Shown: positions 35,777-40,309 of the stretch, in pieces
How positions within the stretch are numbered: the first letter of the stretch is position 1
Layout: the number at the start of each line of letters is the position of its first letter
DNA from: Chloroflexota bacterium
Lineage (GTDB): Bacteria; Chloroflexota; JAJPGV01
DNA: 64,000 nt
Assembly (NCBI GenBank): GCA_021325635.1
Contig: JAJPGV010000035.1
Span: 62,001-126,000 of the forward strand
Reading direction: 5' to 3'
Notes under the pieces: generated by a model
The model's input: the letters and a program-made list of their open reading frames with translations, nothing else
Databases searched by the model: none
What the model was told of the DNA's origin: nothing
Translations under genes and position numbers: made by a program

Positions 35777-35897
35777 TCAACCCTCAACCATGACCCTCAA
35801 CCCTCGACCTAACCCTCGACCCTGAACCCTCGACCCTCAACCCTCAACCCTCGACCCTCGACCCTGACCCCTCGACCCTGACCCCTCGACCCTCCCC
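35777..35897. repeat. degenerate heptanucleotide tandem repeat (CCCTCRA)n
   Basis: About 120 bp of 7-bp units, mostly CCCTCGA, CCCTCAA and CCCTGAC, with two or three shortened copies near the left end. It ends 2 nt before the TACAAT -10 of the ferredoxin-like/thioredoxin gene, so the last units occupy the -35 region. Confidence 0.85.
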
Positions 35898-35911: not shown

Positions 35912-36604
35912 ATGCCTGTCCTGGTTGACTATGCGCGGTGCGACCACAAGAACTGCTTCCCACTGGAGGTGTGCCCGCAGACGGGCAGCGCGCTGCTGGA
36001 TGATGGTCAGCGCATCGTGGCGCATCCGGAGCTGTGTGGCGACTGCCCGGCGCCGTGCCTGAACTTCTGTGACAAGAAGGCGCTGCGCTACGCGCCGGAC
36101 CTGGAAGAGCTGGCGTTGGTCCAGGCCGAAATCGACGGCAGCATGACCAGGGAGCAGATCGACGCGGCCCGCCTGGAAAAGAAGCAGGCTGCTGAGGAGG
36201 CCAAGAAGCAGGCCGAAGCCGGCTCGGTGCAGCCCGTCAAGACGGCCGATTTCGAGACCCAGGTGCTGCAGGCCGACGTCCCGGTGGCGGTCGATTTCTG
36301 GGCCCCGTGGTGTGGTCCCTGCAAGCAGATGGCGCCGGTGTTCGAGGAGCTGGCCAAGAGCTATGCCGGCATGATGAAGTTCTGCAAGATCAATACCGAC
36401 GAAGAGCAGGCGCTGGCCATGCGCTTTCAGATCCAGAGCATTCCCACGCTCATCTTCTTTTGGCAGGGTCGCGAGCTCGATCGTCTGACCGGCGCTCTGC
36501 CGCCTTCGATGCTGCAGACGATCGTCTATCAGCTGCTCGCCGCGGTCCAGGCGCAGAAGGCCCAGCAGCCGAGCGGACAGGAAAGCAAAAGCCCGCTGCT
36601 GTAG
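35912..36604 (+). CDS. Cys-rich ferredoxin-like domain fused to thioredoxin
   Basis: A 230-residue two-domain redox protein with no signal peptide. Residues 1-62 hold seven cysteines (10, 15, 21, 42, 45, 49, 53; YARCDHKNC, LEVC, PELCGDCPAPCLNFC) in a cluster-binding-like layout, though the spacing is not that of a standard 2[4Fe-4S] ferredoxin. Residues 77-105 are a charged helix (EKKQAAEEAKKQAEAG). Residues 107-215 are a normal thioredoxin with WCGPCK (Cys134, Cys137) and SIPTLIFF cis-Pro. Intramolecular electron transfer from a cluster to the dithiol is the natural model. It starts by the -10 box above. Confidence 0.88.
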   Translation: MPVLVDYARCDHKNCFPLEVCPQTGSALLDDGQRIVAHPELCGDCPAPCLNFCDKKALRYAPDLEELALVQAEIDGSMTREQIDAARLEKKQAAEEAKKQAEAGSVQPVKTADFETQVLQADVPVAVDFWAPWCGPCKQMAPVFEELAKSYAGMMKFCKINTDEEQALAMRFQIQSIPTLIFFWQGRELDRLTGALPPSMLQTIVYQLLAAVQAQKAQQPSGQESKSPLL

Positions 36605-36611
36605 AGGTCTT

Positions 36612-37031
36612 CTACAGCTGCAGCAGCCGGCGCAGCTTCGAGCCCAGGGTGTTGCCCGCCATAGCCAGCATGGCGCAGATGATCCATGACGTCACGACCG
36701 CTCCGGCGACGTTGGGGATGGCGCCCAGCACGTTGCCCGCGGCATTCTGCCGCAGCGCCTCCTTGATGGTGTCCGGCACGATCCCCGGATCCGACAGCGT
36801 TGCCAGCGTCAGGCTGGCGAAGATGTAGGCCCAGAACAGGCCAAAGACAATGCCCGACGAGAGCACCAGGGCGCGTGAATTGTCCAGCGGCTTCTCGCGG
36901 AAAACGAAAGCCCCCACGAAGCCGATGGCCAGAAAGCCGCACAGCAGGAACCAGACCTCGTTCGCTGGGGTGAAACGCAGCGTGGCCAGGAGCAGCAGCT
37001 CGACCAGCAGGTAGCTGAACAGTGGGGGCAT
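36612..37031 (-). CDS. small polytopic membrane protein, 4 TM
   Basis: A 139-residue membrane protein with four hydrophobic segments (about 3-17, 26-45, 55-80 and 105-125). The loop ATLSDPGIVPDTIKEALRQNAAGN carries two Gly-Pro-type turns. No family is recognised. It is convergent with the ferredoxin-like/thioredoxin gene (7 nt apart) and divergent from the HTH gene. ATG at 37031. Confidence 0.68.
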   Translation of the reverse strand: MPPLFSYLLVELLLLATLRFTPANEVWFLLCGFLAIGFVGAFVFREKPLDNSRALVLSSGIVFGLFWAYIFASLTLATLSDPGIVPDTIKEALRQNAAGNVLGAIPNVAGAVVTSWIICAMLAMAGNTLGSKLRRLLQL

Positions 37032-37112
37032 GACTCCCGCAATTATGAATTGCCTTGCCGCCGTGCGGCGCTTTTTGGGTCTGGCTCAACCCGTGTCGCC
37101 CGCCAGCCGCCG

Positions 37113-37118
37113 TATACT
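37113..37118 (+). promoter_or_regulatory. -10 box TATACT, leaderless start at ATG 37126
   Basis: TATACT ends 7 nt before the ATG of the HTH protein gene, with no Shine-Dalgarno. Confidence 0.55.
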
Positions 37119-37125
37119 TCGGCAA

Positions 37126-37380
37126 ATGGTGGTCATGATCGAGGGTGAGGAGTACCTCACCACCGACGAGGCCTGTGAGCTGCTGGGCGTCAAGGCGGCG
37201 ACGCTGTACGCCTACGTCAGCAGAGGCCTGCTCCGCAGCTACCGCCAAGGGCTCAAGCGCCAGCGGCTCTACAAGAAGGGGGAGCTGGCCCGTCTCCGTG
37301 AGTTCGGCCCGAGCGAGAGCCGGCGCCAGGACGCTGAGACGTGGCTGCCTGCCGCCGAGAGCTGGGTCCCCTACAAGTAG
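37126..37380 (+). CDS. stand-alone HTH (excisionase/MerR-like) protein
   Basis: An 84-residue winged-HTH protein. EEYLTTDEACELLGVKAATLYAYVSRGLLRS and RQRLYKKGELARLREF are the pattern found at the N-terminus of HTH-carrying citrate synthases; here the domain stands alone, with a short Trp-containing tail (ETWLPAAESWVPYK). It should bind DNA; the target is unknown. ATG 37126 is fixed by the TATACT box; in-frame codons upstream do not form a domain. A tRNA-Ser gene follows 53 nt later. Confidence 0.8.
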   Translation: MVVMIEGEEYLTTDEACELLGVKAATLYAYVSRGLLRSYRQGLKRQRLYKKGELARLREFGPSESRRQDAETWLPAAESWVPYK

Positions 37381-37545: not shown

Positions 37546-38805
37546 TCAAGCCGGTGAGCCTCGAGCAGAAAGCTTGAGCAGCAGGCCTATGAGCAGGAAG
37601 TTCACGATCAGCGAGCTGCCCCCGTAGCTCACGAATGGCAGTGTGATGCCCGTCAGGGGAATGAGGGACACGTTTCCGGCCGCGATGACGAGGCACTGCA
37701 GCGCCAGCACCATGCTGCAGCCCACACCCAGTAGCTGGCTGAAGGCGCGCGGCTGCAAGAGGCCAATCTGCAGTCCCCTGAGGACCAGCAGCACGTATAC
37801 GCCCAGCATGGCCAGCATGCCGGCCAGGCCGATCTGCTCGGCTGTGGCGGCGAAGATGAAGTCTGTCGAGGCGAACGGAATGAACCCTGGGCTGCCGCGG
37901 CCCAGGCCCGTGCCCGAGGCGCCGCCAGCAGCGACGGAATACAGCGCCTGCACGATCTGATAGGAGGGTCCATTGGCGAGCTCCCAGGGATGGAGCCAGA
38001 CGTCGATACGTTGATGGACATAGCCGAACACGCGGTAGGTCAACGCCACGTTGGCGGCCAGCAGCAGCAAGCCAGCCAGGACGAAGGTCTTACGACCCGT
38101 GGCCACATACATCATCGACAGCGCGATGCCCAGCATCAGGACCGTGGCCCCGAGGTCTTTTTGCCATAGCAGGAGCATCAGGGACAGGCTCCACAGCAGG
38201 ATCAGCGGCACCAGGTACGGCAGAGGATTGAGCTTCAGGCTCGCCCAACGGTAGCTGGCCCGAGCCAGCAGCTCCCGCCGCTCCTCGAGGTAGGCCGCCA
38301 TGAAGACCACCAGCAGCACCTTCATCAGCTCAGACGGCTGGAACTGGAGCGGGCCGACGCCCAGCCATAGACGCGCGCCATTGATCTCTCGGCCAAACGC
38401 TGCCGTCACGACCAGCAGCCCGAGGCCGATGGCGGCCGCGGTGTACTTGTAGCGCTGCAGCAGACCGACGTCGGGGAGCGCGACGACGGTCGAGATCATC
38501 AGCGCCAGGCCCAGCGCCAACCACCCGATCTGCGCTTGCTCCTGTCCCGGGTCGAGGTAATTCAGCACCAGCAGGCCAATCCCGGATAGGATCGCAACGA
38601 GAGGGAGCAACGATTGGTCGCCCCGAAACCGAAGCAGCACGAGGATGACATGAGCTGCCAGCAGCAGGCCGGCGAACGTTAGTGGAGTGCGATACCAGTC
38701 TGTGGTTACGTGTCCTGCCTGAGCAAAGCTTTCGCCCGCCCAGCCAACCGCAACCGTCAGGACCGCCAGCAGGATCAGACCCAACTCGCGGAAGCGGGGG
38801 ACCAC
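37546..38805 (-). CDS. FtsW/RodA/SpoVE family peptidoglycan glycosyltransferase
   Basis: A 419-residue SEDS protein with about ten TM segments that polymerises lipid II glycan strands with a partner class B PBP. PLQFQPSELMKVLLVVFMAAYLEER in pieces, WQKDLGATVLMLGIALSMMYVATG, the extracytoplasmic loop with ANGPSYQIVQALYSVAAGG, and GITLPFVSYGGSSLIVNFLLIG are SEDS marks. Neither ftsA/ftsZ nor a PBP is nearby, so FtsW versus RodA cannot be fixed. The start is GTG 38805, with TACAAT 7 nt upstream; the longer frame upstream is the shadow of the divergent gene. It lies 21 nt beyond tRNA-Ser, convergent. Confidence 0.93.
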   Translation of the reverse strand: MVPRFRELGLILLAVLTVAVGWAGESFAQAGHVTTDWYRTPLTFAGLLLAAHVILVLLRFRGDQSLLPLVAILSGIGLLVLNYLDPGQEQAQIGWLALGLALMISTVVALPDVGLLQRYKYTAAAIGLGLLVVTAAFGREINGARLWLGVGPLQFQPSELMKVLLVVFMAAYLEERRELLARASYRWASLKLNPLPYLVPLILLWSLSLMLLLWQKDLGATVLMLGIALSMMYVATGRKTFVLAGLLLLAANVALTYRVFGYVHQRIDVWLHPWELANGPSYQIVQALYSVAAGGASGTGLGRGSPGFIPFASTDFIFAATAEQIGLAGMLAMLGVYVLLVLRGLQIGLLQPRAFSQLLGVGCSMVLALQCLVIAAGNVSLIPLTGITLPFVSYGGSSLIVNFLLIGLLLKLSARGSPA

Positions 38806-38812
38806 CTGGCCG

Positions 38813-38818
38813 ATTGTA
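38813..38818 (-). promoter_or_regulatory. -10 box TACAAT, leaderless start at GTG 38805
   Basis: On the minus strand TACAAT ends 7 nt before the GTG of the FtsW/RodA gene. This sets the start against a 264-nt longer reading. Confidence 0.55.
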
Positions 38819-38857
38819 GAATCTGCCCGTGACCGCTCACCGCCCGGTTGCCCGCTG

Positions 38858-40309
38858 ATGGCCTCGGCAGGGACCACGGACGACGTGGCCCAGGCAGCGG
38901 AAAGCGCGGGCTCGCTCCGTCCCGCGCCGGAGTCGCTGCTGGGCGTCGACATCGGGACCGCCTTCACCAAGGCAGCGCTGTTCGAGCCGGTCGAAGGGCA
39001 GTACCGGCTGGTGGCTCGTGGACAGGCGCGAACCACCTCGGGGACGCACGTCTTCGATGGACTCGCCAAAGCATGTGCCGAAATAGAGGAATTGACCGGT
39101 CGTCAGCTGTTCCGTGGGGGCGAGCCACTGGCCGGCGATGCGTCGGGCGCCCGGGGGGTGGAAATCCTGGGCGCAGTGGTGAGCTGCTACCGGCCGTTGC
39201 TGGTACTGGCCACCAACGACCAGGCCTTTGGCGCGGCCAGGTCGGAGCGCTGTTTGGTCACCCTGCTATCCGAGACCGGTCTCCAGGAGCGATTGGACCG
39301 CCTTACGTCGGCCTCCTGGGATGCAATCGTGGGCACCGCCGATGAGCTGGCCGCCGCCACTGCCCTGTTGGGACAGGCGGGCAGCGACGGCAGCACCGAA
39401 CGTACGTCCACCATGCCGGCCCTGATCAGCGGCGAGGCTTCCGCCATCCGCTCCGGGCTGGCCGAGATTGCGCTGAAGCTGGCCTACCAGGATCTGCCCG
39501 GCCTGCACGATCTTGCGTCCGCATCGACGGAACGGCTGACCACCGTGCCGGCGGCGCTGCTGGGTCTGGCCAAGCTCATTGCTTCGCGCTTCGGGCTGCG
39601 TCTGGGTCTGGCCGACTGTGGGGCCAGCCAGGCCTCGGTGGCCTTTGCCAGTCCCGACACGGAATGGCTGCGCCTGGCGCCCTTCGATCGAGCGTACGTC
39701 GATATGCCCGTAAATCCTGTTGCGCTGCGGGACTTGCATGTATGGCAGCAGCGGGCTCTGGCGCAATGCGTCGACGATTCGTTTGCCGCGGATCTGCTCA
39801 TGGGCACCGGGGCCATCAAGCACTTCAAGAGCTGGAGCGAGCCGGCGCTGACGCTGCTCAATGGGGTGCACCCGTCCGGCGTCATCCAGTTTGCCCTGGA
39901 CAGCGCGGGCATCGCTACCCAGATAGCGCCCTTCGCGCCCAGCCTGCCCGACGTTGCCTCGCGCATCTTCGAGCACGACGCGCTGACCGGCCTGGGAGCT
40001 GCCGTCTGTCCGCGTGGAACCGTGAAGCCTGGCGCCAAGGCCATCGAGGTGCGCTGGCGGGTTGACGATCAGAATGAGCAGAGCCGCGCCGTTACGGCAG
40101 GGGAGCTGGTGCGCATCCCGCTCACCGCTGGTTCGAAGGCCAGCCTGTCGCTCTTCCCGGCCAAGAGCCTGGACATCGGCTTGAAGCGCCCGGGCGTAGC
40201 GGCCAAGGCGCATATCGACGGCGGGCACGTAGGCCTGATCGTCGATGCTCGCGTGGAAGCCGACGATACGGCGGAGGGCCGGCGGCGATGGGAGGAAGCC
40301 CTGGCGTGA
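38858..40309 (+). CDS. GlmL/MutL-family actin-like ATPase (glutamate mutase repair protein family)
   Basis: A 483-residue protein of the MutL (GlmL) family, actin-fold ATPases associated with glutamate mutase and related B12 enzymes. DIGTAFTKAALFE (31-43) is phosphate loop 1, VVSCYRPLLVLATND and LADCGASQASVAFA are inner core segments, and TGLGAAVCPRGTVKPGAKAIEV with IDGGHVGLIVDAR close the family-specific C-terminal domain. No mutase subunits (glmES) are in the window. It overlaps the next gene by 22 nt, and the pair with gene 40288 looks fixed. ATG 38858. Divergent from FtsW/RodA. Confidence 0.88.
   Translation: MASAGTTDDVAQAAESAGSLRPAPESLLGVDIGTAFTKAALFEPVEGQYRLVARGQARTTSGTHVFDGLAKACAEIEELTGRQLFRGGEPLAGDASGARGVEILGAVVSCYRPLLVLATNDQAFGAARSERCLVTLLSETGLQERLDRLTSASWDAIVGTADELAAATALLGQAGSDGSTERTSTMPALISGEASAIRSGLAEIALKLAYQDLPGLHDLASASTERLTTVPAALLGLAKLIASRFGLRLGLADCGASQASVAFASPDTEWLRLAPFDRAYVDMPVNPVALRDLHVWQQRALAQCVDDSFAADLLMGTGAIKHFKSWSEPALTLLNGVHPSGVIQFALDSAGIATQIAPFAPSLPDVASRIFEHDALTGLGAAVCPRGTVKPGAKAIEVRWRVDDQNEQSRAVTAGELVRIPLTAGSKASLSLFPAKSLDIGLKRPGVAAKAHIDGGHVGLIVDARVEADDTAEGRRRWEEALA

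Follow-up and report, generated by a model that had tools for sequence, protein, structure and literature searches.

The gene analysed here lies in a 64,000-nucleotide stretch of a Chloroflexota contig (the window) and encodes a ferredoxin-like cysteine domain and a thioredoxin, each a known module, in a new combination (Table 1). With somewhat less than even confidence in the reading as a whole, we take its product to be a cytoplasmic thioredoxin that bears an atypical ferredoxin-type Fe-S domain on a helical arm, is reduced by TrxB and would be docked onto redox partners by the added domain. Rather than taking the place of the usual reductase, the Fe-S domain probably equips the thioredoxin with a new partner or a sensor. 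We infer the metal, the ligand assignment, the docking and the reductase used.

Table 1. Features of the fusion gene, in window coordinates.
Feature	Position	Strand	Basis
Whole gene: ferredoxin-like domain, helical linker and thioredoxin, 230 aa	35912..36604	+	Full-length homologues
Ferredoxin-like Cys domain, residues 1-62 (C10, C15, C21, C42, C45, C49, C53)	35912..36097	+	Cys invariance; hhalign with shuffle control; low-confidence AF2 strands; FdI/AprB fold matches
First Cys motif C-x4-C-x5-C-P, residues 10-21	35939..35974	+	Alignment
Second Cys motif C-x2-C-x3-C-x3-C, residues 42-53	36035..36070	+	Alignment
Charged helical linker, residues 63-105	36098..36226	+	AF2 helices 64-75 and 80-103
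Thioredoxin domain, residues 106-210 (WCGPC 133-137, cis-Pro 178)	36227..36541	+	PF00085, TIGR01068, AF2

The reading frame starts with ATG and ends with TAG, and the start is supported by an N-terminal MP that is invariant in all 20 fusion proteins of the alignment (L102, read in part only, was left out). The frame, the two cysteine groups, the charged helix and the WCGPC thioredoxin are all as the original prediction had described them, and no hydrophobic N-terminal segment is visible in the protein sequence, in agreement with its claim that a signal peptide is missing. Seven cysteines within 53 residues have a binomial P of about 3e-6 at a cysteine content of 1.2%; outside this region and WCGPC the protein has one further cysteine, residue 158. 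The N-terminal unit extends to about residue 76, because a stand-alone homologue in genome G080 contains the first linker helix. This homologue (L143, 7774-8001, 76 aa) adjoins response regulator and ABC-transporter-like genes.

None of the neighbours of the window gene is informative. Directly upstream, at 35777-35894, CCCTCAACCCTCG-like units of 7/14 bp are repeated in tandem, with about eight copies of 14 bp; the array ends 17 bp before the ATG. Downstream are a gene for a small membrane protein (36612-37031), a divergent gene for a MerR/HTH_17-type DNA-binding protein of 116 aa (37030-37377) and, on the minus strand, a gene for an FtsW/RodA family protein (37546-39069).

The N-terminal domain is homologous to the 4Fe-4S ferredoxin superfamily (Fer4), as judged by sequence comparison, and is very probably ferredoxin-type and Fe-S-binding. 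At E ≤ 1, residues 1-66 alone had no match in Pfam or NCBIfam, so standard annotation would read the protein just as a thioredoxin. Matches to the Pfam Fer4 families were weak with a profile of the domain, and its relatives reached only E ~1e-3. In the search with this domain alone, which had been proposed at the outset, curated families returned nothing; profile comparison with the PDB matched the ferredoxin-type chains FwdG, a ferredoxin and AprB. Its nearest kin are small ferredoxins with a C-x5-C-x5-C(P) first motif, such as L125, which themselves exceed the Pfam Fer4 cut-offs. In hhalign, the domain aligned with L125 at 98.5% over 56 columns. The score of 73.6 dropped to 15.2±4.0 (maximum 26.3) in 100 shuffles in which all non-cysteine residues of L125 were permuted and the cysteines kept; the similarity thus exceeds a shared cysteine spacing, and the ferredoxin-like character proposed for the domain holds up. 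With low confidence (pLDDT 58.7, range about 50-70), AF2 arranges the strands of the domain in the order of a ferredoxin fold, and the best fold matches in the PDB were Azotobacter FdI and AprB, with a best E of ~0.01 and none below 0.001. As had been foreseen, the spacing is not that of a textbook 2[4Fe-4S] protein, since instead of two CxxCxxCxxxCP motifs with eight cysteines the domain has C-x4-C-x5-C and C-x2-C-x3-C-x3-C, with seven.

In such ferredoxins, a cluster is held by three cysteines of one motif and the CP cysteine of the other. By this rule C42, C45 and C49 together with C21 would form a complete site, predicted to hold one [4Fe-4S] cluster, and C10 and C15 with C53 would form a three-cysteine site (site I), predicted to hold a [3Fe-4S] or a labile [4Fe-4S] cluster. 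Because the AF2 model of this domain is poor, the assignment rests on the alignment. All seven cysteines are invariant in the 20 aligned fusion proteins; loss of the pattern in homologues, which the original prediction had named as evidence against itself, was not seen. The first motif reads C-x5/6-C-x5-C in the relatives. Five of the 20 proteins have an additional cysteine at position +2 from C10 that would supply a fourth ligand, and in the other 15 site I has only three cysteines. The N-terminal domain is under strong purifying selection: in close pairs its dN/dS was mostly 0.02-0.12, with one pair at 0.24, similar to the thioredoxin domain. This selection and the invariance of the seven cysteines speak more strongly for the domain than does the binomial estimate.

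The fusion is present in 21 genomes, the window's genome counted. A whole-protein search of 151 relatives gave a single full-length homologue (G028), a search of 400 Chloroflexota genomes with the N-terminal domain only gave four more, and a profile built from these homologues recovered 19 genomes of the class to which G389 belongs, plus G028 in another class. Among the same 400 genomes, which were evenly drawn, seven members scored at least 93 bits, i.e., six fusions and the stand-alone domain of G080; the next matches, at 42 bits and below, were small or generic ferredoxins. Scanning 84,980 species with a single, tight nine-residue pattern returned nine relatives, all Chloroflexota or Thermomicrobiota, and since looser variants would escape this pattern, the scan does not establish absence outside these groups. 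Viral contigs gave matches to the thioredoxin domain only and plasmids gave none. Across the fusion family the N-terminal domain is conserved and always occurs with the thioredoxin.

The thioredoxin domains of the fusions form a lineage largely apart from the stand-alone thioredoxins of Chloroflexota: a supported branch (95/99) separates 17 of them from the latter, and that of G028, on a long branch, groups with the stand-alone proteins. A separate origin of the G028 fusion is not required, as placing all 18 fusions tested in one clade gave a p-AU of 0.5. Gene neighbourhoods of the fusion are not conserved beyond close relatives. In Thermomicrobia the common neighbours are a glycosyltransferase and a ribosome-hibernation factor, in the f80 genomes a 75-aa membrane protein, and the G445 and G028 loci have a NUDIX protein in common; none of the shared neighbours from Thermomicrobia and f80 is present beside the window gene.

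The C-terminal half is a regular thioredoxin. It scored 116.1 bits against TIGR01068 (NCBIfam, cut-off 96.8) and 102.5 bits against PF00085 (Pfam, cut-off 23.5), was modeled by AF2 with pLDDT >90 and matched thioredoxin structures in the PDB. The dithiol C134/C137 is retained in 19 of the 20 fusion proteins. The window genome encodes another thioredoxin and a TrxB (400 bits, cut-off 343) with both NADPH motifs, GGGDTA and HRRDQLR, which distinguish NADPH enzymes from FFTR (PMC10880999). The FTR catalytic chain (PF02943) was absent from the window protein and genome, while positive controls were detected. At the thiol-redox locus of G028 (L142, 6347-10199), the fusion gene comes first in a tightly packed series on one strand and is followed by DUF302, FmdB zinc ribbon, DUF1462 and, last, canonical TrxB (372.8 bits) genes; the gene ends overlap or nearly do so, and the run is a putative operon. 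The linkage occurs in this one genome only, that of the most divergent member. An OsmC gene and a TlpA-like gene diverge from the run, and another cysteine-rich ferredoxin of 68 aa lies just past the locus, at ~10650. In G446 (L139, 8327-9720), the fusion protein has SPRAGQD in place of WCGPC with its seven N-terminal cysteines intact, and a separate WCGPC thioredoxin is encoded ~0.3 kb downstream of it. The genome's own TrxB, the TrxB linkage in G028 and the loss of CGPC in G446 argue against a cluster meant to reduce the attached dithiol, although cluster and dithiol may conceivably be partners in trans, and the original proposal that the cluster feeds the dithiol and bypasses thioredoxin reductase is not borne out.

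We therefore tentatively favor a TrxB-reduced thioredoxin whose atypical Fe-S domain would mainly dock it to redox partners or carry electrons itself. Most likely, NADPH and TrxB would reduce the dithiol in the ordinary way; the Fe-S domain would then place the thioredoxin on ferredoxin-using or Fe-S enzymes, or itself transfer electrons, and disulfide reduction would be delivered to a chosen client. The main rival to this reading, which we consider unlikely but still worth weighing, is that the domain senses redox state or oxygen, the assembly state of a labile three-cysteine cluster being the switch that sets how active the attached thioredoxin is or which clients it serves. The three-cysteine site of 15 of the 20 relatives is typical of labile clusters, and heme-copper oxidase genes indicate that the organism meets oxygen. 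However, the G446 protein keeps the sensor cysteines with no dithiol to control, and a stress-regulation signature was not found at the locus. It is rather improbable that the cysteine domain binds zinc or has a structural role, or that it acts as an Fe-S scaffold or carrier that takes no part in electron transfer. Cysteine-rich domains commonly bind zinc or serve as scaffolds, and an extended 2-3 Cys spacing like the one seen here is unusual, but by sequence the domain is homologous to 4Fe-4S ferredoxins and not to zinc ribbons, and the CP/helix pattern of ferredoxins is retained.

Direct reduction, in which electrons of reduced ferredoxin or another donor would enter the cluster domain and go on to the attached disulfide as a one-protein alternative to FTR, is possible but disfavored, and we regard it as improbable. 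The two redox domains are constantly fused, and the three-cysteine site could leave an iron open to a disulfide sulfur. Genes for 2-oxoacid:ferredoxin oxidoreductases are present as well; together with the heme-copper oxidases, these indicate that both reduced ferredoxin and oxygen occur in the organism. These oxidoreductase genes agree with the earlier suggestion that ferredoxin-linked reduction may matter there. One-electron clusters need an FTR-like geometry for disulfide reduction, and the FTR fold is absent from the protein and the genome. Direct reduction is further opposed by the NADPH-type TrxB of this genome and of the G028 putative operon, by the G446 protein, which lost CGPC yet kept the cluster cysteines, and by a linker of ~40 residues across which domain packing was predicted without confidence (AF2 pTM 0.58). 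A one-protein Fe-S thioredoxin system in which the open iron of the three-cysteine cluster directly reduces or ligates the disulfide of the thioredoxin or a client is very improbable; if real, it would lead from ferredoxin to thiols by an independent path that needs neither flavin nor FTR.

Thiol chemistry and low-potential electron chemistry have thioredoxin and ferredoxin as their two main currencies, and the conserved covalent joining of these has been hidden because current models annotate only the thioredoxin. The fusion would give thioredoxin a new mode of targeting or sensing, and direct reduction, if true, a new ferredoxin-to-thiol route. We found no account of a fusion between a ferredoxin-like domain and thioredoxin in the literature searched, which covered few subscription papers, and the fusion is apparently undescribed.

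Small ferredoxins such as L125 ('CPQNHRCPSLRVCPTGAL...CIDCGKCIAYCP') and L152 share the cysteine layout of the first motif and the order of elements, but stand alone and have a textbook CxxCxxCxxxCP second motif, whereas the window protein has C-x2-C-x3-C-x3-C and is fused to a thioredoxin. The 7Fe/8Fe ferredoxins (Azotobacter FdI) and AprB, a subunit of adenylylsulfate reductase, share the CP pattern of the N-terminal domain and, at low confidence, its predicted fold, with weak scores, other loop lengths and no fused thioredoxin. Known reductases that link Fe-S electrons to thioredoxin embody the same idea as the fusion, but there the reductase is a separate enzyme that has the FTR-beta fold or uses FAD, and neither fold occurs in the window protein. 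With the bacterial thioredoxin TrxA (TIGR01068, PF00085), the thioredoxin domain shares WCGPC, the cis-Pro and scores above the curated cut-offs; unlike TrxA, the window protein carries a 105-residue N-terminal cysteine domain plus linker.
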